Source: Hartmannibacter diazotrophicus
Lineage (GTDB): Bacteria > Pseudomonadota > Alphaproteobacteria > Rhizobiales > Pleomorphomonadaceae
Direction: 5' to 3'
Length of the DNA stretch: 64,000 nt
NCBI RefSeq assembly: GCF_900231165.1
Contig: NZ_LT960614.1
Span: forward strand, 4,217,501 to 4,281,500
Made by a program: the position numbers and the translations under genes. Positions 16,588 through 28,600 of this stretch are shown here, in pieces; the stretch's first letter is position 1; the number at the start of each line of letters is the position of its first letter. The notes under the pieces are model-generated. The model saw only the letters and a program-made list of their open reading frames with translations. It was not told the origin of the DNA and searched no databases.

Positions 16588-17496
16588 TCAAGCCTGTTCG
16601 AGAGCCGAGGGCCGGCCGCCAAGCACGGTGGTGATGGCCGCACCGGCCGCCGTGCCGCGCACTAAGCAGGTCGCGATATCGTGCCCGCCAAGATGAGCCG
16701 CGACATAGGCGGCAAGGAAAGCATCGCCCGCCCCCGTCGTATCGATCACGTCCGCGACAGGCGCGGGCGCCGAATATCGCAGCCCATCGGCAAGGGCTTC
16801 GGCGCCCTGCGCGCCTCGCTTGATGACGAGGGTCTTGTAGAGCGGACCGAGCCGCTGGAACTGCTCATCGGGATCGTTGCTGCCGGAAAGCAGCGCCGCC
16901 TCCGCCGCATTGGGGAAGCAGAAGTCCATGCCCCGCGTCCACTGAAGAAAATTCTCCACCCCGAATTCGGACAGGAAGGTGATGGATGACGGATCGATCG
17001 AGGTCGCGATCCCTGCCGCCTTGGCCTTGGCGAGGAAATCGAGCACGGCGGTCCGCGAGCCCGGCGCCACCAGCGCATAGGCCGAGACGTGCACGATCGC
17101 AGCGCCCGCAAGCAGCCCCTCCGGCAGGTCGGCGGATGACAGGGCATCGTTGGCGCCGCGGTCGGTGAAAAAGCTGCGCTCGCCGTCCGCCGCGACCAGC
17201 GTCACCAGCTTGCCGGACGGCAGATCGGCGTCTGAACCGAGATGCGCCTCGACGCCGGCGGCCGCGAAGTCCGTGACCAGTCGCGCATGATCCTCATGCC
17301 CGACACGCGCCACGAAGCGTGTTGGCACGCCGGCGTGGGCCAGCCAGCAGGCCTGGTTCGCCCCGGACCCGCCCGGCAACATGCGGATGGTCGCCCGGCA
17401 GTCGGACCCGCGCACCATCTCGCCCTTGGCACGGACGATGATGTCCGTCATCACATCGCCGATGACGACGACCGTCCCGATTGTCGTGTCAGCCAT
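16588..17496 (-). CDS. psuK: PfkB-family kinase, probable pseudouridine kinase
   Basis: A 302-residue ribokinase-like sugar kinase. The N-terminal signature GGSGANQACWLA binds the sugar. The C-terminal PfkB motif DTTGAGDAFLAAYVA holds the catalytic Asp of the GAGD segment. Its start at 17496 overlaps the end of psuG by 6-8 bases. In the known pathway PsuK phosphorylates pseudouridine to its 5'-phosphate, which PsuG cleaves. The assignment to pseudouridine rests on this coupling to psuG, since PfkB sequences alone do not fix the substrate. Confidence 0.82.
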   Translation of the reverse strand: MADTTIGTVVVIGDVMTDIIVRAKGEMVRGSDCRATIRMLPGGSGANQACWLAHAGVPTRFVARVGHEDHARLVTDFAAAGVEAHLGSDADLPSGKLVTLVAADGERSFFTDRGANDALSSADLPEGLLAGAAIVHVSAYALVAPGSRTAVLDFLAKAKAAGIATSIDPSSITFLSEFGVENFLQWTRGMDFCFPNAAEAALLSGSNDPDEQFQRLGPLYKTLVIKRGAQGAEALADGLRYSAPAPVADVIDTTGAGDAFLAAYVAAHLGGHDIATCLVRGTAAGAAITTVLGGRPSALEQA

Positions 17497-18406
17497 TGCT
17501 GCCGGCCAGCGCCACGGCAATACGCGCGGCCAGCGCGGCGTTGTTCTTCACCAAGGCGATATTGGCAACGAGGCTGCGCCCGTCGGTCAATTCCAGGATG
17601 CGCTGGAGCAGGAAGGGCGTCAGCGCCTTGCGGGTAACGCCCTTTGCCTCCGCCTCGGCGATCGCTTCCGCGATCCGCTGGTCGATCATGGCGCTGTCGA
17701 GCGCGTCGGCCTCCGGGATCGGGTTGGCGATGAGAAGGCCGCTGGAAAAACCGAGCGCCCGATGGGTGGCGATCACAGACGCGATTTCCTCGGGGCTGTC
17801 GCAGGCAAAATCGACCGTCTCGCCGCTCTCGCGTGTGAAGAAGGCCGGAAAGGCCGTCGACCGGTAGCCGAGCACCGGAACGCCGTGGGTCTCGAGGAAT
17901 TCCAGCGTCTTCGGGATGTCGAGGATCGATTTCGCCCCGGCGCAGACGACGGTCACGGGCGTTTGCGAAAGCTCGATGAGATCGGCGGAAATGTCGAAGG
18001 TTTCTTCCGCGCCCCTGTGCACCCCGCCGACGCCGCCCGTCGCGAAAACCGGAATGCCGGCCTTGGCGGCGATCACCATGGTCGCGGCCACCGTTGTGCC
18101 TGCCGTCCCGCCACGCACCATGATCGGGGCAAGGTCCCGGCGCGTCGCCTTGAAGACGTCCTTCGCCTGGCCGAGCCGGTCAAGCGTTGCCTCGTCCAGC
18201 CCCGCCACCAGCTTGCCATTGAGCACGGCGATGGTCGCAGGCACGGCCCCGTTCTCCCGCACCGTGGCTTCGACGGCCCGCGCCGTCTCGACATTTTGCG
18301 GATAGGGCATGCCGTGGGTGATGATAGTGGATTCCAGCGCCACGACCGGCCGCCCCGCCGCAAGCGCGGCCGCGACCTCGGGACTGGTGATCACATCGGT
18401 CTGCAT
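17489..18406 (-). CDS. psuG: Pseudouridine-5'-phosphate glycosidase
   Basis: A 305-residue enzyme that splits the C-C glycosidic bond of pseudouridine 5'-phosphate to uracil and ribose 5-phosphate. Strongly conserved family segments are present: VALESTIITHGMPYPQN at the N-terminus, GGTAGTTVAATM, FATGGVGGVHRG, VVCAGAKSILDI, and GLLIANPIPE. I start at the ATG at 18406, which leaves no long tail before the conserved core. It is coupled to psuK by overlap. No pseudouridine transporter gene is adjacent. Confidence 0.95.
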   Translation of the reverse strand: MQTDVITSPEVAAALAAGRPVVALESTIITHGMPYPQNVETARAVEATVRENGAVPATIAVLNGKLVAGLDEATLDRLGQAKDVFKATRRDLAPIMVRGGTAGTTVAATMVIAAKAGIPVFATGGVGGVHRGAEETFDISADLIELSQTPVTVVCAGAKSILDIPKTLEFLETHGVPVLGYRSTAFPAFFTRESGETVDFACDSPEEIASVIATHRALGFSSGLLIANPIPEADALDSAMIDQRIAEAIAEAEAKGVTRKALTPFLLQRILELTDGRSLVANIALVKNNAALAARIAVALAGSNG

Positions 18407-18609
18407 AGAATTCTTGTGTCCGTTTCTGGAAGGCTGGCGTATCGCGCCGGATGGTGCCGATCCATAGGCCGACCCGGCCCCCGTCAGCAAGCCCGCCGAT
18501 GCAGGCCCGCCCGTACATGACCGCCGGGAAGCAACGGCAACGACCTGAAAACCAGCGGCAGGACGATGGCGCGGTGCGCGGAGATTGCCCCCGCGCACCA
18601 CGCGGCCAT

Positions 18610-19517: not shown

Positions 19518-19766
19518 ATGCAGCAGACCATTCGAGAATTGATTTCGAAGCACGGCGGAATTGAGGGCAAGGCGCTCGACGAGACAAGTGACCTTTACGA
19601 TGCCGGCCTGACGTCGTTTGCCTCCGTCCAGCTGATGCTGGGACTGGAAGACACCTTTGACATCGAGTTTCCCGAAACGATGCTGAACCGGCGAACCTTC
19701 CAGTCGATCGCCTCGATTGCGGCGGCCGTCGCCGAGCTCGTCGGCGATCATGAGAATGCATCATGA
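19518..19766 (+). CDS. Acyl-carrier-protein-like carrier for an aminoacyl group
   Basis: An 82-residue phosphopantetheine carrier protein. The attachment site is Ser33 in DAGLTSFASVQ, where DSL of fatty-acid ACP is replaced by LTS. The rest forms the four-helix ACP pattern with DTFDIEFPETML in helix II/III. I start at the ATG at 19518, after GGGAA; the extra 22 residues upstream look unlike a carrier protein. It overlaps the next gene (ATGA) and is followed by an amino acid:[carrier protein] ligase, so it is most likely the acceptor of that enzyme and not a fatty-acid ACP. Confidence 0.9.
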   Translation: MQQTIRELISKHGGIEGKALDETSDLYDAGLTSFASVQLMLGLEDTFDIEFPETMLNRRTFQSIASIAAAVAELVGDHENAS

Positions 19767-20962
19767 GCGCCATCGAACGGATTGACGCCAAGGCCCCGGC
19801 CCAGACCGAGAGTCTCAGCGAACGCGCGCGCGAAGTCGCCGCCGTCGCGGCCGCCCACGCCGATGACGTCGACCGCAAGGCCCGCTTCCCGCACGAAGCC
19901 ATCGCCGCCATGAAGGTGAAGGGCCTCCTTGGCATCATGGTGCCGGCCGCACTCGGCGGCGAAGGCGCGAGCCTTGCCGAGGTCGCCGAGGTCACCTCAG
20001 CCATCGGCCAGGCCTGCGCGGCGTCCGGCATGATCTTCGCCATGCACCAGATCAAGATGTCGAGCCTCGTCTCGCATGGCGTCGAGAGTGCGTGGCATTC
20101 CGAATTCATGAGCCGTGTTGCCAGGGAGCAGCTTCTGCTCGCCTCGGCGACGACCGAGGCCGGCATCGGCGGCGATCTGCGCAACTCCATCTGTGCGGTC
20201 GAGGTCGAGGGCGACAAGGCGCGGCTGGAAAAGGCCGCGACCGTCATTTCCTACGGCTCCCACGCGGACGCCATCCTCGCGACCTCGCGCCGCCACCCCG
20301 ACGCTCCCTCGTCGGACCAGGTCATGACCGTGCTCGTCAAGGGCCAGTACGATCTGGAAAAGACCAACGACTGGGACACGCTCGGCATGCGCGGCACCTG
20401 CTCGGATGGCTTCATGCTGCGCGGCGAAGTCGCCGCTGAGCAGATTTTCCCCAAGCCCTTCGCGGAAATCGCCGCCCAGTCGATGCTGGCGACCTCGCAT
20501 CTGCTCTGGGCCTCGCTCTGGCACGGCATTGCCGTCGACGCATTTGCCCGCGCCCAATCCTTCGTGCGCGCCGCCGCCCGCAAGCAGCCGAGCGCAACGC
20601 CCCCCGGCGCGCTGCGACTGGCCGAGGCCGGCAGCGTCCTGCAGGCCATGCGCTCGGGCATCCGGTCGGGTCTGGAACGCTTCGAGGCTGCCAAGGCCGA
20701 TCCGGACGTGCTCTCCTCGATGGGGTTCGCCGTCGCCATGAACAACGTCAAGGTTGCCGCCTCCGAGCAGGTGCTCGCCGTCGTCGACCAGGCGCTGCTG
20801 GTCACCGGTATCCTCGGCTACAAGAACGGCACGCCCTACAGTGTCGGCCGGCATCTGCGCGATGCCCACTCCGCGCGGCTGATGATCAGCAACGACCGCA
20901 TCCTCGCCAACACGTCGAACCTGCTGCTCGTGCAGCGGCAGGACGCCAGCCTTCTGAGGTAA
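19763..20962 (+). CDS. Acyl-CoA-dehydrogenase-like flavoprotein
   Basis: A 399-residue protein of the acyl-CoA dehydrogenase superfamily. The N-terminal helical domain (about 15-120), a middle beta domain with [13 protein letters not shown], and a C-terminal helical domain can be recognised, ending in [13 protein letters not shown]. The usual EGT segment with the catalytic Glu of many dehydrogenases is absent (MISNDR instead), so the base may lie elsewhere or the activity may differ. Sandwiched between a carrier protein and its ligase, it probably acts on a carrier-bound aminoacyl or acyl group. It overlaps the carrier gene by 4 bases. Confidence 0.82.
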
Positions 20963-20967
20963 CCACC

Positions 20968-21876
20968 ATGGATGTTCAGGGCAGTTTCCTCGATCAGCTC
21001 TTCGACCGCGGATTGCTGATCGAGACGGGCGTCGACGGCCTTTACGGCCGCAGCGGCGTTTTCGAAGACGTCATCGCCCGCTTCGATGCGCTGGTGACCC
21101 GCTATGGCGAGGCCGACGGTGCCGAGGTGATGCGCTTTCCTCCCGGCATGAGCCGGCCGCATTTCGAAAAGAGCGGCTATCTGAAGAGCTTTCCCCAGCT
21201 TGCCGGCACGGTGCACAGCTTCTGCGGCGACGATCAGGGTCACGCCCGCATCATCGAATGCCTTGCGACCGGCGAGGACTGGACCGGCGAACAGAAGGCG
21301 ACGGACGTCGTCCTGACGCCTGCGGCCTGCTACCCTCTCTATCCGGTGATCGCCAAGCGCGGCCCCCTGCCGCCGGAAGGCCGGCTCTTCGACCTCCAGT
21401 CCTATTGCTTCCGCCACGAGCCCTCGCTGGAGCCGACCCGGATGCAGCTCTTCCGCATGCGCGAGTATGTCCGCGCCGGAACGCCCGAGCAGGTGGTGGA
21501 CTTCCGCGAGAGCTGGCTGGAGCGAGGCCAGGAACTCATCAAGTCGCTGGCACTGCCGATGAAGGTCGATGTCGCCAACGACCCCTTCTTCGGCCGTGCC
21601 GGACGCATGATGAAGGTGAACCAGCGCGACCAGGGCCTGAAGTTCGAGCTTCTGGTGCCGGTCAACAGCGAGGAAAGCCCGACGGCCTGCCTCAGCTTCA
21701 ACTATCACCAGAACCATTTCGGCCAGACCTGGGGCATCGCCACGGACGCCGGCGAGACGGCCCATACCGCCTGCGTCGGCTTTGGCCTCGAACGCGTGGC
21801 GCTCGCGCTCTTCCGCCACCACGGCCTTGACGTGAAGACCTGGCCGAAGCCCGTCCGCGAAACGCTCTGGGGTTGA
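20968..21876 (+). CDS. Amino acid:[carrier protein] ligase (class II aaRS homologue)
   Basis: A 302-residue truncated seryl-tRNA-synthetase homologue without a tRNA-binding arm. Motif 2 appears as CFRHEPS...MQLFRMREY and motif 3 as [12 protein letters not shown]. Three residues fit the zinc site of atypical SerRS and of the Bradyrhizobium ligases: Cys121 (AACYPLYP), Glu166 (RMREY) and Cys269 (TACVGFG). Known members (Bll0957 type) activate glycine or alanine with ATP and load it on the phosphopantetheine of a small carrier protein rather than tRNA. The carrier gene lies two genes upstream. Which amino acid is used cannot be judged safely from the sequence. Confidence 0.92.
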
Positions 21877-22880
21877 CGATCATGCCGCAGCCGACCACGC
21901 AGGACCGCGCGTCGGCGGCCTTTGACGCGGCCGTCTTTCCCGCGCTCGATCCGTCCGCCTATGAGCGTCACCCGCTGCATTCGGCCGACCGAATCTGGCC
22001 GGAAACCAACTGCTTCATGGATCTGTGGATCGAGGTTCTGGCAAGCCTCGGCCACGCGCCGGAGGCCATGCTCGGCTTCACGGTGACGCAGGATTTCGAG
22101 GGCGACCAGGCGACCTTCTTCAAGGTGCCCGCGGCCGACCTTGAGGCGATCTACGGCCTGAGGCTTCAGGAACTGGCGATCTTCGAGCATGTCGAGGATC
22201 ACGTGACGACCCAGATCGCCCGTGGCCGGCTCTGCCTCGTGGAGGTCGACGGCTTCTACCTGCCGGATACGCAGGGTGTGGCCTATCACACGGAGCACGG
22301 CAAGACGACGGTCGCCATCAACCGGCTCGACATCACCGGACGGCGGATGGAGTATTTCCACAACGCCGGCTATTTCACCCTCGAAGGCGAGGATTTCGAC
22401 GGCGTCTTCCAGCGCACGCCCGGTGCCGACGGCGAACGGCCGCTGTTCCTGCCCTATACGGAATTCGTGAAGTTCGGCCCCGCCCCCGAGGACGGGAACA
22501 TGAAGGCCGACGCCTGCAAGCGCCTTGCCTCCGCTCTGGCCCAGCGCCCGGCGGAAAACCCGATCGCGGCCTTCGCCGCCGTCTTCCCGGCGCAGGCCGA
22601 AAACCTTGCCGGTCGGCCCTTTGCCGCCTTCCATCACTACGCCTTCAACACGCTGCGACAGTTCGGCTCGAACTTCGAACTGCTCGCCAGCCACCTCGAC
22701 TGGCTCGGCGAGGACGGTGCTGACGCCCGCGCCATTGCCGAGACGATGAAGAGCGCCCAGTTCCAGCTTGCCCGCGCGGTCAATCGCGGCAAGTTCGAAA
22801 AGCTCACGGGCGTCCTCGATCCGGCGGTGGCGGCATGGGACCGGCTGATGGCCGATCTGGAGACAAGGTTCAAAGCGTGA
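21873..22880 (+). CDS. DUF1839-family protein
   Basis: A protein of about 332-335 residues (TTG at 21873 or ATG at 21882). I recognise it as DUF1839, a family of unknown function. An N-terminal Cys sits in [17 protein letters not shown], followed by [29 protein letters not shown]. The arrangement of an early Cys and a later His before a beta strand recalls BtrH-type transferases that move acyl groups from carrier proteins; this comparison is my inference. The gene overlaps the ligase upstream and the glycosidase downstream (GTGA), so it is clearly part of the carrier-protein pathway. The C-terminal half is helical. Confidence 0.75.
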
Positions 22881-25333
22881 CGACGTTCCAGGATCGCGCT
22901 GTGTCCCCGTCCGCATGCATCGGCGCGTTCTCCCTGATCTCGACGCCGGCCGGCGCTTTCAGGGCGCCCGACGGTCTTCCCGACGCGGACGCCATCCCCG
23001 CGCCCGTGCCGGGCACCGTGGCAGAGGCTCTGGCAGCGGCCGGATGCTTCGACCGCAACGACCCGACACCGCTTCACGACGACGATCACTGGTATCTCGC
23101 GCCGCTTTCCGGCGAGGGCCGCTTCCGCCTCGTCTTCGATGGTCTTGCGACTTTCTGCGACGTCTATCTCGATGGTGAGCGGATCGCCGCAACGAAGAAT
23201 ATGTTCGTGCAGCATACATGTAACGTGTCGCTGTCGGGCACGCACCGGCTGGCCCTGTGCTTCCGCGCGCTGCGGCCGGAACTCGGCAAGAAGGGCCCCC
23301 GCGCCCGCTGGCGGCCGCAGATGATTCCCAATCAGGGCCTTCGCCTCGTCCGCACCACGCTGCTCGGCCATATGCCCGGCTGGTGCCCGAGCATCGAAGC
23401 GATCGGCCCCTATCGTCCGATCCGCATCGAAGCGCTTGACCGGCCGGTCGTCCGCCGTGCGCGCATCACACCGGACTTCGACGGCAAGGGTTCGCTCGAC
23501 GTTGAACTTGAGATCGAGGGCGCGGCCGGCAATGCCAGCCTGTCCTGCGCCGGCGGGACGACGGTCCTCACCTCCGACGACGGCAAGACGTTTTCAGGCC
23601 GGCTCGATAGTCTCGATGTCGAGCCCTGGTGGCCGGCCACCCATGGCGGCCAGCCGCTTTACCCCGTGAGCCTGACCGTCGGCGACACGACGCTCGATCT
23701 CGGCCGCACCGGTTTTCGCCGCATCGAGGCCGATCGTGGAGAGGACGGCAAGGGCTTCGGCCTCAGGGTCAACGGCACGCCCGTCTTCTGCCGTGGCGCC
23801 TGCTGGACCAACGCCGATATCCTGAGCCTTGCCGGCGCGCGCCAGAACTACGAGCCCTTCCTGCGTCTTGCCGCCGAGGCCGGCATGAACATGATCCGCG
23901 TTGGCGGCACCATGCTCTATGAAAGCCCGGACTTCTTCGCGCTTTGCGACGAACTGGGCCTGATGGTCTGGCAGGAGTTCGTCTTCGCCAACTTCGACTA
24001 TCCCGTCCGCGATCCCGACTTTGTCGCCGAGGTCCAACGGGAGGCCGAAAGCGTCCTGACGTCCATCGCCGGCTCGCCATCCCTTGCGGTTCTGTGCGGC
24101 GGCAGCGAGGCGATGCAGCAGGGCGCGATGATGGGCTTGCCCGAAAGCGCCTGGCGCTCGCCGCTCTTCACCGACATCCTCGCTGGGGCTGCCGCGCGGC
24201 TCCGCCCCGACGTACCCTATGTGGAGAATTCGCCCTCGGGCGGCGCCCTGCCCTTCCTTCCGAACGAGGGCGTCGGGCACTACTACGGCGTCGGCGCCTA
24301 TATGCGTCCGTTGGAGGATGCGCGCCGCGCCAACGTCCGTTTCGCCGCCGAAAGCCTTGCCTTCGCCAACGTGCCCGACGAGGTGTCCCTCAAGACAACG
24401 CTGAACGTTCCGGCCGTGCATCATCCACGCTGGAAGGCGGGCGTTCCGCGCGATCTCGGCGCCTCCTGGGATTTCGAGGACGTGCGCGACCACTATCTCG
24501 CCCTCCTCTACGAGGTCGATCCGGCGCGTCTGCGCCGCGAGGACCCGGTCCGTTACCTCGACCTGTCGCGCGCCGTCAGCGCCGAGGTGATGGCGGCGAC
24601 CTTCGACGAGTGGCGGCGCGCAGGATCGTCCTGCGCCGGCGCGCTGGTCTGGACGCTTCAGGATCTTGCCGCCGGCGCCGGCTGGGGTATCATCTGTTCG
24701 GACCGCAATCCGAAGCCGGCATGGCATGGCCTGAAGACAGCCTTTCAGCCCATCCGCGTGATCCTCACGGACGAGGGCACCAACGGCCTTGCCATCCATC
24801 TCGTCAACGAGACGCCCGAGGCCATCGAGACGACGGTTTCCCTGACGGCCCTTCGCGAGGGTCGCCAGCCCGTTCTCTCCGCCAAAAAGGACATGGAACT
24901 GCCGCCGCGCTCGGTCCAGTCGATCAACGCCTTCGAGCTGACCGGCGCCTTCTTCGACCTCACCTATGCCTACCGCTTCGGCCCGCCGAGCCATGATGCG
25001 GTGGTGGCAGGCCTGTCCGGTCCCGACGGCATGCTTCTCTCGCAGACCGTCCATTTTCCGCTTGGCCGCGGCAATGCCCGGCACGATCTTGGACTGGAAG
25101 CGACGCTGATTGAGGACGGCGGCTATTGGCTGGAGATCTCCACCGCCCGCCTCGCCCAGTCGGTCCATATCGTCGACGAGCACTTTCGCGGCGAAGCAGA
25201 ATGGTTCCACCTACCGCCCGTCGCGCCGCGCCGCATTCGCCTCCTCCCGCGCGCCAACGCTCCCGAAGGGGCAAGGCCGTCCGGCGAACTCATCGCCGTC
25301 AACGGTCTTCGCGGCGCGCGATACGGCGGCTGA
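22877..25333 (+). CDS. Glycoside hydrolase family 2, beta-mannosidase-like, without signal peptide
   Basis: An 818-residue GH2 enzyme. The N-terminal jelly-roll sugar-binding domain (about 10-190) includes GLATFCDVYLDGERI. An Ig-like domain follows, then a TIM barrel starting at GLRVNGTPVFCRGACW. The likely acid/base is Glu411 (CGGSEAM) and the nucleophile Glu492 (FAAESLAF). C-terminal Ig-like domains follow (about 650-818). The start is a GTG whose last bases form the stop of the DUF1839 gene, so translation is coupled. With no export signal it should act in the cytoplasm, perhaps on a glycoside made or imported by this locus. Confidence 0.85.
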   Translation: MTTFQDRAVSPSACIGAFSLISTPAGAFRAPDGLPDADAIPAPVPGTVAEALAAAGCFDRNDPTPLHDDDHWYLAPLSGEGRFRLVFDGLATFCDVYLDGERIAATKNMFVQHTCNVSLSGTHRLALCFRALRPELGKKGPRARWRPQMIPNQGLRLVRTTLLGHMPGWCPSIEAIGPYRPIRIEALDRPVVRRARITPDFDGKGSLDVELEIEGAAGNASLSCAGGTTVLTSDDGKTFSGRLDSLDVEPWWPATHGGQPLYPVSLTVGDTTLDLGRTGFRRIEADRGEDGKGFGLRVNGTPVFCRGACWTNADILSLAGARQNYEPFLRLAAEAGMNMIRVGGTMLYESPDFFALCDELGLMVWQEFVFANFDYPVRDPDFVAEVQREAESVLTSIAGSPSLAVLCGGSEAMQQGAMMGLPESAWRSPLFTDILAGAAARLRPDVPYVENSPSGGALPFLPNEGVGHYYGVGAYMRPLEDARRANVRFAAESLAFANVPDEVSLKTTLNVPAVHHPRWKAGVPRDLGASWDFEDVRDHYLALLYEVDPARLRREDPVRYLDLSRAVSAEVMAATFDEWRRAGSSCAGALVWTLQDLAAGAGWGIICSDRNPKPAWHGLKTAFQPIRVILTDEGTNGLAIHLVNETPEAIETTVSLTALREGRQPVLSAKKDMELPPRSVQSINAFELTGAFFDLTYAYRFGPPSHDAVVAGLSGPDGMLLSQTVHFPLGRGNARHDLGLEATLIEDGGYWLEISTARLAQSVHIVDEHFRGEAEWFHLPPVAPRRIRLLPRANAPEGARPSGELIAVNGLRGARYGG

Positions 25334-25335
25334 TC

Positions 25336-27117
25336 TCAGCCCTTGCTGGCAAAATCGATGAGATGGGCGAGCAGCGCCTCGCGCGCAGCTCTCGGCGTCA
25401 TGTTGTGATCCGCGTCCGGCACGATGGTCAGCGTCGTGTTCGGATAGGCTGCAAGGCCCGCACCCCCGGCCCGGAAATAGGTCGAAAGCTCGTCGAGGCC
25501 GCCATCGTCCGCGCTGTAGACAAGCGAGATGCGCGTTCCGCGCTCCCTGAGCAGGCGGAAGCGGCGGTGCACCTCATCATAAAGGCGCGCATATTTGGTC
25601 ATGCCGAAGCTCACTGGGGCAAGGCGCACGCCGAGCTTCTGGCTCATCCGGCGGAAGACGTCGGCGCTCACCCGCACGACGTCGATGTCGCCGGTGAAGA
25701 GGCGCTTGAAAGTCTTCAGCTCCAGCATCCGGCTGCGATAATTCGCCAGCGAACGGAAGCTGTTGCGGATCGCCTCGTCGACGTCCTCTTCCGGGTTCCA
25801 GATAAAGCGCAGGATGTTGACGAGAACGGCGCCCTTGACGCGGGGGTCGCGGACCGCCCCCGCAAGGCCAAGGAAGGCGCCGCTGCACCGACCGGCAAGG
25901 ATCACATCCGAAAATCCCCGGGCCTCGAGCATGTCGATGGCAGACGTGACGTCGCGCGCCTGCGCCTCGGAATAGAGCACCTGACGCGGACTGTCGGGCA
26001 GCGCCGGACTGTCGCCGACATCGGCGGCATCGAAGCGCAGCGAGGCGATTCCCGCCTTCGCCAGCCCGCGCGCGTTGTCGACGGTCGAGCGCGCCCAGCC
26101 GAGATGCGGATCGAAACCGGAGTTGAGAAAGACGAAGACCTTGCCGCCCGAAGCACCCGACGCTCCCGCCGGCCGGCAGAGAATGCCGAAGAGATGATCG
26201 CCGGGCCCGAAGCGCAGCGCCTCTTCCTCGAACGCCGCGCCAACCTGGGCGGCGAGCGGCGCAGGCATCGGCGGGCACGAGGCATCCTCGGCAGGAAAAT
26301 TGGCGTCCATCCAAGCTCCGACCGCATTCCAGACCTCAGCCGGCGTGCGCGCCGAGGTCGGATCGCCCGTCAGGAGATCGTAGCCCTCGAAGGCAATGGC
26401 CTCGCAGGCAATGTCCGCACCCTTCAGCGCCGCTGTGAAATCGGCATCGACGGTCTGGCCGGGACGCATGGCCACGAAGTGCCGCACCTGCGGCATCGGC
26501 AGCGCCGCCGCGCGAAGAGCCTTGATCGACGTTGCCAGCGCATCGGGCATCCGGAAGCCGGCAATGCCGACACCACCCGTTGCGGCAGCCTCCGGCGGAA
26601 GACCGATCTTGTCGTTGATCATCGCCGACCAGGCGGAGATTTCCCGCAAATGACGGCGGCCGTCACTGACCGGGCCGAGCAGAATGAACCCGCCGAGCGC
26701 GGGCACATCGGGGCTCGCGAGCCGGGCCAGAAGAGCCCCGAGGCCGAGGCCGCAAAGAACGATGCGAGACGCGCCGGAAAGCCGCGTGAGGTCCTCCGCC
26801 GCTTCCACGACGGCCGTACGCCAGGCATCGACGTCGCCCACCGCTTCAGGATCGACGGCGCTGTCGCCCGTGCCCGGATAGTCGAAGCGCAGGACGGCAT
26901 AACCCCGGTCGGCAAGCTGGTCGGCGAGAATGCGCAGGCTCTTGTGCGCGCAGAGAGCCTCGAAACCCCACGGCGGACAAATCAGAACAGCCGTGTCGCG
27001 GTGGCCGGCGTGAAGCATTCCGAAGCCATGGGACAAACCGACGGGGGCACCGCCCGGTGCCCGGGGCAGGTCCACGTCAAGCGAGACTGCATTTATTTGC
27101 CCGGAATGAACTATCAT
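25336..27117 (-). CDS. Tandem alpha/beta hydrolase with altered nucleophile motifs
   Basis: A 593-residue protein with two alpha/beta hydrolase domains (about 1-270 and 285-593). In domain 1 the nucleophile elbow reads G-L-G-L-G (123-127), with no Ser, Cys or Asp, so it is probably inactive or binding only. In domain 2 it reads G-R-C-S-G with Cys411 at the nucleophile position, and a C-terminal Asp and His (YSADDGG, DADHNM) complete a possible triad. The domains resemble serine aminopeptidase-like hydrolases found in surface polysaccharide loci. It converges with the GH2 gene (2 bases between stop codons) and is divergent from the flippase gene. Confidence 0.78.
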   Translation of the reverse strand: MIVHSGQINAVSLDVDLPRAPGGAPVGLSHGFGMLHAGHRDTAVLICPPWGFEALCAHKSLRILADQLADRGYAVLRFDYPGTGDSAVDPEAVGDVDAWRTAVVEAAEDLTRLSGASRIVLCGLGLGALLARLASPDVPALGGFILLGPVSDGRRHLREISAWSAMINDKIGLPPEAAATGGVGIAGFRMPDALATSIKALRAAALPMPQVRHFVAMRPGQTVDADFTAALKGADIACEAIAFEGYDLLTGDPTSARTPAEVWNAVGAWMDANFPAEDASCPPMPAPLAAQVGAAFEEEALRFGPGDHLFGILCRPAGASGASGGKVFVFLNSGFDPHLGWARSTVDNARGLAKAGIASLRFDAADVGDSPALPDSPRQVLYSEAQARDVTSAIDMLEARGFSDVILAGRCSGAFLGLAGAVRDPRVKGAVLVNILRFIWNPEEDVDEAIRNSFRSLANYRSRMLELKTFKRLFTGDIDVVRVSADVFRRMSQKLGVRLAPVSFGMTKYARLYDEVHRRFRLLRERGTRISLVYSADDGGLDELSTYFRAGGAGLAAYPNTTLTIVPDADHNMTPRAAREALLAHLIDFASKG

Positions 27118-27256
27118 TTGCTAACAAGAGCCCCGGCGAATGCCGCCCGTTCCATGTATTCGCGTCCATGAAGACATTTGCCCGCATATTTATCGAAGTT
27201 TACCGCCACACCGTGCAGAAAAATCGAAAAAAAGTGAATCAAATGCTGGGCATCCC

Positions 27257-28600
27257 ATGTTGAACGGCAAGAAGGCGACCGAACGCTCCCCGGCCGCATC
27301 GTGGGTGTGGCGTCTGGTCGAGCGGCGGCGATCGGCCTTCGGCGCGGCGCTGACCCTCGGCATCAAGGTCGGCGGCACCGGCCTTGCCTTCATCCTTTTC
27401 TGGCTCGCGGCCCGCAGCATGGGCGCGGAGGATTTCGGCCGCCTCGCCGTCTGGTTCAACGCGGTCTCGCTCATCGCCGTCGTCGCAACGCTCGGCCAGG
27501 AAACGCTGATCATGCGCTCCTGGGGCGAGTATATGGCCCAGAAGCGGCCCGCCGCAGCCCGGGGCGCCCTGAGGAGCGGCTGGATGACCGCGATCTCCGG
27601 CGGCATCGTTCTGGCGGCGCTGGTCGCCGTCTTCGGACCGATGATCGACCCGGCCGAGAACTGGGCGGTCGGCGTTGCCGCCGCGGCCTTCGTTTTCGCC
27701 CAGGTGCTCCTGCACTATGGTTCCCACGCCACCCGCGCGGTCGTCGGCGTCCTCGTCTCCGAACCGAGCAGGGAACTCGTCTGGCGCTTCATCCTGGCAG
27801 CTTCGCTCGCCGCGGCCTGGATCACCCATGGCAGCGTCAGCCTCGCCTTCTTCTTCGGCATCGCCAGCCTCGGAATGCTGATCGGCGTCACGGTCGAGGC
27901 GTCGGCGCTTCGCAGCCGGCTGGCGAAGATGCCCACATTGCTCGATCTCTCCGACCAGCCCAAATGGCGGCGACGCGCGCTGGCCATGTGGTCGGCCGCC
28001 AGCATCGAGGCCTGCGGCCAGTATGCCGAGGTGCTGGTGATCGGCGCCTTCGCGAGCCCCTTCGAGGCCGGAGCCTATTTCGTCGCGACGCGCCTTGCCA
28101 ATGTCTTCAGCGTCATGACGGGCGGGCTCAACAGCTATTCGTCGGCCCGCCTGTCGGCGCTCCATTTCAGCGATGCGCGCGGCGAACTCGTCCACATGCT
28201 GAAGAGCATCATGGCGATCGCCCTCATGCTCGTCGCCGGCATCGGCGTGGCGATCGCGGCCTTCGGCCCCTTCCTCCTCGGCCTTTTCTCCCCCGACTAT
28301 GTCTCGGCCTACCCGGCGCTTCTGATCCTTGCCGCCGCGGCCGCGCTGACAGCGCTCTGCGGCCCCGCCCCCACCGTTCTGCTGACGCTCGGCGGCGAGA
28401 CCGTCTATCCGCGCGTCATCGCGGTGACGCTCGCCATCCGCCTCGTCGGTCTTTTCGTGGTGGTGCCGGTTTATGGCGCCCTCGGCGCGGCGATCGTCTG
28501 GGCGACGACGACCACCGTCTCGTCGCTGTTCCTGGTGCGCCTCTGCCGCAAACGGACGGGCCTCGACCCGTCCGTCGCCATTCTTCTTCGCAAGGGCTGA
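27257..28600 (+). CDS. Oligosaccharide flippase-like membrane protein (MOP/Wzx superfamily)
   Basis: A 447-residue inner-membrane protein with about 12-14 predicted helices and very few charged residues between them. The pattern of an early Arg/Lys helix, LAARSMGAEDFGRLAVW and a repeated MATE-like layout fits polysaccharide flippases, which move lipid-linked glycans across the membrane. The ATG at 27257 is chosen because it opens just before the first helices; the ribosome site is weak. It faces the tandem hydrolase gene across a 140-bp promoter region. It supports a link of this block to cell-surface glycans. Confidence 0.82.
   Translation: MLNGKKATERSPAASWVWRLVERRRSAFGAALTLGIKVGGTGLAFILFWLAARSMGAEDFGRLAVWFNAVSLIAVVATLGQETLIMRSWGEYMAQKRPAAARGALRSGWMTAISGGIVLAALVAVFGPMIDPAENWAVGVAAAAFVFAQVLLHYGSHATRAVVGVLVSEPSRELVWRFILAASLAAAWITHGSVSLAFFFGIASLGMLIGVTVEASALRSRLAKMPTLLDLSDQPKWRRRALAMWSAASIEACGQYAEVLVIGAFASPFEAGAYFVATRLANVFSVMTGGLNSYSSARLSALHFSDARGELVHMLKSIMAIALMLVAGIGVAIAAFGPFLLGLFSPDYVSAYPALLILAAAAALTALCGPAPTVLLTLGGETVYPRVIAVTLAIRLVGLFVVVPVYGALGAAIVWATTTTVSSLFLVRLCRKRTGLDPSVAILLRKG

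Follow-up and report, generated by a model that had tools for sequence, protein, structure and literature searches.

Gene content and conservation of the locus

We analyzed a 64,000-nucleotide window of Hartmannibacter diazotrophicus (contig NZ_LT960614.1, positions 4,217,501 to 4,281,500 of the forward strand), part of a 5.45-Mb genome in two contigs with a rated completeness of 99.99%, for a gene set built around an amino acid:[carrier protein] ligase derived from an aminoacyl-tRNA synthetase (aaRS). Five open reading frames (ORFs) run head to tail on the plus strand from window position 19518 to 25333. They encode an 82-residue aminoacyl carrier protein with its phosphopantetheine site at Ser33 (19518 to 19766; PF00550 and NF005480), a 399-residue flavoprotein of the acyl-CoA dehydrogenase fold that lacks Glu or Asp at two known base positions (19763 to 20962; PF02771/PF00441), the class II aaRS-like ligase of 302 residues (20968 to 21876; NF005479), a DUF1839 protein that is a candidate cysteine acyltransferase (21873 to 22880; PF08893), and a glycoside hydrolase family 2 (GH2) protein of the beta-mannosidase type (22877 to 25333; PF22666). 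Three of the junctions are 4-base overlaps, and one is a 5-base gap. The DUF1839 frame starts with TTG at 21873, with ATG at 21882 as a possible alternative, and the GH2 frame starts with GTG at 22877. An initial annotation of this DNA had described these five families as a tightly packed row, and we found the plus-strand ORFs and the family matches as it gave them. The five genes are real, but the annotation missed a sixth member of the set, a 593-residue double alpha/beta hydrolase encoded convergently to the operon on the minus strand (25336 to 27117; resembling TIGR03101 and TIGR03100). A consensus scan found a single promoter-like site, within the GH2 gene, and neither a promoter-like site ahead of the operon nor a terminator, results that carry little information in this GC-rich genome. 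The genome has three matches to the phosphopantetheinyl transferase family PF01648, with none in the window.

We searched one genome each of 84,980 species with the ligase, which gave 192 confirmed relatives. As loci we used the best 80; being the closest relatives, they form a sample biased towards similar loci. The window ligase shares 85% identity with that of Chthonobacter albigriseus (Pleomorphomonadaceae). By tblastn with the window proteins, the flavoprotein gene was present in 80/80 loci, the carrier and DUF1839 genes in 79/80 each, and the GH2 gene in 77/80. Every missing gene (the carrier in L059, at a contig start; DUF1839 in L071; GH2 in L027, L055, and L071) falls at a contig end, as judged by locus length. 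The genes present retained their order in all 80 loci, which is far beyond chance. Median spacings between successive operon genes were -1, 4, 4, and 9 bases, values that depend on start codons chosen by script, and the DUF1839-GH2 junction was the loosest (100 bases or less in 57/75, with a largest gap of 551). The loci, from Alphaproteobacteria and Myxococcota, include members of Hyphomicrobiales, Azospirillum and Roseomonas species, and two bins of Myxococcaceae, and the same order occurs in annotated betaproteobacterial plasmid regions of Mycetohabitans and Caballeronia. These results show that the gene set is kept together across many soil- and plant-associated bacteria. In one Azospirillum argentinense locus (L082, 16830 to 20972), the GH2 gene is absent from the gene table and the open frame is unusually long; it may be frameshifted.

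A relative of the double hydrolase was present in 61/80 loci, and in L069, L072, L074, L076, and Mycetohabitans it lies behind the GH2 gene and shares its strand, so that six genes stand in a row. As a second, less selective sample, we took 398 genomes spread evenly over the phylum. Of these, 28 had a ligase-model score above the cut-off, and 16 more had only weaker matches (101 to 175 bits, not counted). DUF1839 was found at 18 places in 16 genomes; it stood directly behind the ligase on the same strand in 16/16, and the extra copies lay elsewhere in two genomes (G255 and G328). Among the first 200 genomes, seven had DUF1839. The same seven carried the GH2 subfamily, with matches of at least 740 bits against a next-best match of 146 bits, and the double hydrolase, which had no other match at an E value of 1e-12 (7/7 versus 0/193). 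The hydrolase gene was on the same contig as DUF1839, within about 10 kb, in five of the seven and on other contigs in G107 and G191. The taxonomic order of H. diazotrophicus contributes 27 of the 200 genomes, its own included, and because 20 of these 27 have none of the three genes, while 8 of those 20 carry the ligase, the DUF1839, GH2, and double hydrolase genes come and go together. The genomes are related, and the counts are therefore not independent. The double hydrolase is the sixth member of the set, and the three genes are gained or lost together even among near relatives. The initial annotation had left the co-occurrence of ligase, DUF1839, and GH2 in other genomes to be checked, and the order kept in 80/80 loci and the GH2 gene in all seven DUF1839 genomes bear it out.

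Active-site features of the six proteins

The carrier matched PP-binding PF00550 at 38.9 bits and NF005480 at 99 bits (cut-off, 72), and its best solved relatives were chain C of 4h2w and 2jq4 (Atu2571). The ligase matched NF005479 (amino acid--[acyl-carrier-protein] ligase) at 519 bits (cut-off, 357) and the solved Bll0957 structures 4h2w and 3mey at 346 and 339 bits, with a score below the cut-off for Pfam tRNA-synt_2b (25.6 versus 29.3 bits). It is the single match of its kind in the genome, and a dedicated carrier gene lies nearby in 79/80 ligase loci. The alignments from which we determined residue conservation contain near-duplicate rows, and a few genomes are represented in them twice. 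Ser33 of the carrier was invariant in 87/87 rows. The zinc set named in the initial annotation (Cys121, Glu166, and Cys269) holds in 107/107 ligases and is aligned to 3mey/4h2w. Arg149, Glu151, and Arg276, which we take to include the arginines of class II motifs 2 and 3, were likewise invariant in 107/107.

The flavoprotein scored above both family cut-offs (Acyl-CoA_dh_N, PF02771, 51.1 bits; Acyl-CoA_dh_1, PF00441, 25.7 bits). In alignments with solved enzymes, the glutamate of the Y-E-G motif of 8i4p falls on Ile375 and a second base position falls on Ser245; we take these to be the known catalytic-base sites of acyl-CoA dehydrogenases of the medium-chain or isovaleryl type. In 105/105 flavoprotein rows, position 375 is I or V and position 245 is S, A, T, or C, never an acidic residue, and H95, H246, W249, W253, N377, and R379 are invariant. 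These residues exclude the usual arrangement of the base, but the enzyme may still be a dehydrogenase. Behind its six best solved matches, the flavoprotein profile matched DnmZ (80 bits) and a nitrososynthase (77 bits), and N-oxidation is therefore possible. The oxidation step of the initial annotation fits the family match, but oxidation need not mean desaturation when two base positions carry no acid. We dropped a plain alpha,beta-dehydrogenase as a candidate; the usual base is missing, and glycine would offer no beta carbon.

DUF1839 matched PF08893 at 403 bits (cut-off, 22.5), and C47, T133, T145, H163, and H254, numbered from the TTG start, were invariant in 86/86 rows. One account assigns DUF1839 to the papain-like fold group with a C(T/S)H order and, in the passage concerned, suggests glycan processing from genomic context (PMC10318531). 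We regard the protein as a candidate cysteine acyltransferase with a putative C47/T145/H163 triad, in which the choice of threonine is our own reading.

The GH2 protein matched Glyco_hydro_2_N2 at 46.2 bits and, by profile, the beta-mannosidases 5n6u (288 bits) and 2vjx (256 bits), to which it aligned over nearly its full length and with both catalytic glutamates. The acid/base E411 and nucleophile E492 were invariant in 83/83 rows. The Asn-Glu motif is altered to Ser-Glu, with S410 in 83/83, unlike the other related GH2 proteins of four genomes, two with and two without the operon, which have Asn-Glu in 6/6. In GH-A enzymes the Asn before the acid/base Glu binds the 2-hydroxyl of the sugar, and one exo-glucosaminidase also has Ser there. 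Ser410 would fit a 2-amino sugar substrate. Judged by eye, the GH2 protein has no signal peptide and is apparently cytosolic.

The N-terminal half of the double hydrolase resembles exosortase-A hydrolase 2 (TIGR03101, 81.5 bits; cut-off, 202.75) and the C-terminal half resembles hydrolase 1 (TIGR03100, 89 bits; cut-off, 168.45). Cys411 of the G-x-C-x-G motif (G-R-C-S-G in the window) was present in 57/57 rows, D538, D570, and H571 were present in at least 95% of rows, and the nucleophile position of the N-terminal half is Gly or Arg. True hydrolase 1 exceeded its cut-off in 6/200 genomes, with an exosortase-type AMP ligase above its own cut-off within 3 kb in five of the six; weak partial matches to these broad ligase and hydrolase families occur in most genomes. 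One of these regions (L110, 357 to 2328) encodes, in this order, a PP-binding protein (21.9 bits against a cut-off of 20.8), an alpha/beta hydrolase that we take from its position as hydrolase 2, and hydrolase 1 with the motif G-L-C-D-G, about 1.3 kb from the AMP ligase; it may be a parallel acyl-decoration system. A script listing flagged no carrier gene in the other five hydrolase 1 regions. Both settings therefore pair these hydrolases with an acyl-activating ligase, and L110 adds a carrier. The window gene shares with the exosortase-A-associated hydrolases the order hydrolase 2-hydrolase 1 and, with L110 hydrolase 1, the GxCxG motif, and it differs in that the halves are fused and both score under the curated cut-offs.

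Ligase clades and the carrier-flavoprotein-ligase core

DUF1839 was absent from 12 of the 28 ligase genomes of the 398-genome sample. In all 12 the flavoprotein gene directly precedes the ligase gene, and in 10 the carrier gene lies upstream on the opposite strand (tblastn). In the eight of the 12 that were searched further, neither a GH2 gene of this subfamily nor a double hydrolase gene was present. A GNAT-like gene stands directly behind the ligase gene in six and about 3 kb away in one more, and none was found in the remaining five; against Pfam, one GNAT-like protein scored 17.9 bits, under the cut-off, and the other had no match. A 291-residue GNAT-like protein encoded behind a Bradyrhizobium-type ligase (L103, 10911 to 11786), with no Pfam match at an E value of 0.01, is a possible acyl-transfer partner.

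In a tree of 103 ligases, the 12 DUF1839-less ones grouped with Bll0957 (support, 98/97), and the DUF1839-linked ligases and a long Priestia branch fell on the other side (97/98). Three changes of DUF1839 label were needed over this tree, in which long branches (Priestia, two Betaproteobacteria, and L102) may be misplaced and the label "none" of L071 merely reflects a contig end. The likeness to Bradyrhizobium ligases drawn in the initial annotation therefore stands for the family and the aligned zinc ligands but not for the clade. Bll0957 of Bradyrhizobium (3mey, 4h2w) is of the same ligase family, and the genomes of its clade have the flavoprotein directly before the ligase as in the window; the clade differs in lacking DUF1839 and in having the GNAT-like gene behind the ligase in 6/12. 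We use Bll0957, which presumably prefers Gly, as a model for the loading step only, because the genomes of its clade are without DUF1839 and the eight searched are also without GH2 and the hydrolase.

On a Priestia megaterium plasmid (L085, 4875 to 18698), the carrier, flavoprotein, and ligase genes stand behind acpS and are followed by genes encoding a transporter, ATP-grasp protein, thioesterase, alanine permease, and alanine racemase. The plasmid ligase is 45% identical to that of the window, the ATP-grasp protein matches an L-amino acid ligase domain below the threshold, and a D-Ala-D-Ala ligase gene lies about 4 kb upstream of acpS. This looks like a cluster for the biosynthesis of an alanine-like inhibitor with self-protection genes. 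More distant homologs were also found on plasmids. In Apilactobacillus kunkeei (L090, 11403 to 14051), genes for a carrier, an aaRS-like ligase (26.5% identity), and an ATP-grasp protein lie near transketolase and aminotransferase genes, possibly as a small-molecule cluster; a Streptomyces plasmid (L089, 12001 to 12903) encodes a homolog of 35% identity, and 22 Streptomyces plasmid records had ligase matches, with about 28 to 35% identity among the matches listed.

From these arrangements, carrier, flavoprotein, and ligase look like a unit with exchangeable endings. A stronger version, which we consider doubtful, is that a portable cassette makes one unusual oxidized amino acid unit (such as an N-hydroxy or imino/oxo-glycyl unit) that differing modules finish: DUF1839, GH2, and the double hydrolase for glycans; the GNAT-like protein in the Bradyrhizobium type; and the ATP-grasp protein in Priestia. 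In its glycan form, the cytosolic GH2 protein would be a synthetic transglycosidase acting on an aminoacylated sugar.

Proposed pathway and alternatives

The gene set is essentially of the known Agrobacterium tumefaciens Atu2571-Atu2574 type, with strict co-occurrence. In its passages on this system, a 2010 Biology Direct note added in proof linked the ligase to genes for a carrier, a redox enzyme, the conserved but uncharacterized Atu2574, and a glycosidase and to saccharide genes, and predicted that an amino acid is joined to a sugar of the cell surface through the amino group of that sugar, the redox enzyme probably catalyzing monooxygenation (PMC2922099). We infer that Atu2574 is DUF1839 and that the Agrobacterium redox enzyme is the flavoprotein described here, with that note as our one source for the Agrobacterium gene neighborhood. 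The kinds of genes and the sugar-amide hypothesis are the same as ours; the passages concerned call the redox enzyme Rossmann-fold and are silent on the double hydrolase, on separate ligase clades, and on altered active sites (PMC2922099). New here are the sixth gene, the split between ligase clades, the absence of an acid at the flavoprotein base positions, and the change of the GH2 motif. The initial annotation had called the end product undescribed. We found no paper on the product in a literature search of open-licence PMC papers, but the neighborhood and a similar hypothesis were in print in 2010. For the aminoacylated carriers themselves, a further paper states in the part concerned that their role is unknown and gives Ala, Gly, and Ser for these ligases in a table (PMC9437257).

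We clustered the ORFs around the ligase (10 kb per side where present) in 87 loci and scanned one representative each of 15 clusters; the cluster counts are lower bounds, as with this ORF caller even the ligase cluster had members from only 54 loci. The scanned neighbors include GT4, GT2, Wzx, Wzz/tyrosine-kinase type, acyltransferase 3, and GH5 proteins. None of the other neighbors approaches the double hydrolase in frequency, the commonest of their clusters occurring in at least 28/87 loci. Two or more polysaccharide-type clusters were present in 47/80 loci, a count that includes a membrane protein of about 442 residues with no Pfam match that we called Wzy-like. In L077, the genes run GT4-Wzx-hydrolase-GH5-GT4-operon on one strand, and in Mycetohabitans an aminoarabinose-lipid A transferase gene lies about 9 kb upstream. 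The likeness of the double hydrolase to the exosortase-A hydrolases forms a second link to glycans.

Taken together, gene context and residues suggest that the pathway decorates a glycan, or a precursor of one, with an oxidized aminoacyl group, a reading for which we judge the chances to be evenly balanced. The general idea was predicted in 2010, and we infer every reaction here, the loading from homology to assayed relatives and the others from context and residues. The order of loading, oxidation, transfer, and action on a glycoside would be as follows. The ligase would activate a small amino acid as its aminoacyl-AMP and load the acyl group onto the carrier, at the pantetheine thiol of Ser33, as others have shown for relatives. 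The flavoprotein may then oxidize the carrier-bound amino acid at the nitrogen or the alpha carbon, by oxygenation or to an imine, which is likelier than alpha,beta-desaturation because the usual base positions have no acid. The DUF1839 cysteine would take the acyl group and link it to a sugar as an amide or ester, with an amino sugar as the most likely acceptor, and the cysteine alpha/beta hydrolase may perform a second transfer or free stalled groups. Two proteins with invariant candidate nucleophilic cysteines, DUF1839 and the double hydrolase, would favor acyl transfer. In what is the weakest step, the GH2 protein might trim or transglycosylate the glycan substrate. If true, this would be an aaRS-derived route for decorating bacterial sugars with modified amino acids, and the strict co-occurrence and active-site changes of the six-gene set make the question testable.

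Several observations weigh against this pathway. Among solved structures, the six that the flavoprotein profile matches best (80 to 98 bits) are all named acyl-CoA dehydrogenases. The best of them, 7p98, has Thr and Asn at the two aligned base positions, and because this named dehydrogenase also has no Glu there, the missing Glu is no proof of monooxygenation. The operon has no flavin reductase gene. Comparison of DUF1839 with solved structures gave chance-level matches only and no solved relative. BtrH, a carrier protein:aminoglycoside acyltransferase, is like DUF1839 in the proposed transfer of an acyl group from a carrier to an amino sugar, and passages of PMC10318531 treat both as papain-like. 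However, the two have no detectable profile similarity (hhalign probability of 3.8% against eight BtrH_N proteins), DUF1839 differs by the C(T/S)H order that the same paper gives it, and a relationship between them is not supported. In 19/80 loci, the flanking sequence retrieved, which is short in some cases, showed no double hydrolase, and the annotation of the Caballeronia region lists none either. No counted polysaccharide cluster was present in five listed loci from outside Hyphomicrobiales (L060, L069, L072, L074, and L076), and no Wzx, Wzz, or glycosyltransferase is listed in the Azospirillum, Mycetohabitans, and Caballeronia regions, for which the plasmid gene table is incomplete.

These last regions would also fit a small diffusible product, a glycosylated amino acid derivative serving as a signal or antimicrobial, with GH2 acting on a glycoside intermediate and the polysaccharide genes being mere neighbors in Hyphomicrobiales. 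We regard this as possible but clearly less probable than glycan attachment. The three-gene core in Priestia, within its small-molecule-like cluster, points the same way, but the annotation of that region has none of the other three genes (DUF1839, GH2, and the double hydrolase). The polysaccharide-type clusters of the 47 loci argue for a glycan instead, and beyond flippases the only transporters among the 15 scanned clusters were an importer-type ABC ATPase (at least 14/87 loci) and an SbmA/BacA-like protein (at least five loci).

Another alternative is a catabolic or salvage module in which GH2 and the hydrolases degrade an acylated glycoside, the freed amino acid then being handled by the carrier system. 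The retention of both GH2 catalytic glutamates and the closeness to beta-mannosidases are consistent with such a module, but the importer cluster was seen in only 14/87 loci, the GH2 motif departs from that of 6/6 related GH2 proteins, and ATP-driven carrier loading is usually biosynthetic; we consider salvage improbable. We hold equally little expectation that the carrier feeds aminoacyl groups into nonribosomal peptide-type assembly elsewhere. This use was proposed when the ligases were first described, as told in a passage of PMC2922099, and an ATP-grasp protein stands beside the core in Priestia, but no condensation domain or peptide ligase appeared among the 15 scanned clusters, which cover part of all neighbors.

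Directly beyond the double hydrolase, the window encodes a Wzx-type polysaccharide flippase on the plus strand (27140 to 28600; PF01943, 28.7 bits against a cut-off of 28.2), a neighbor and possible partner of the set. We rejected it as a fixed member, since tblastn found a relative in only 22/80 loci. On the other side of the operon, two minus-strand genes at 16588 to 18601 encode a PfkB-type sugar kinase, by family match, and a second protein without an NCBIfam match that by eye we take to be pseudouridine-5'-phosphate glycosidase-like; the pair probably serves pseudouridine breakdown.

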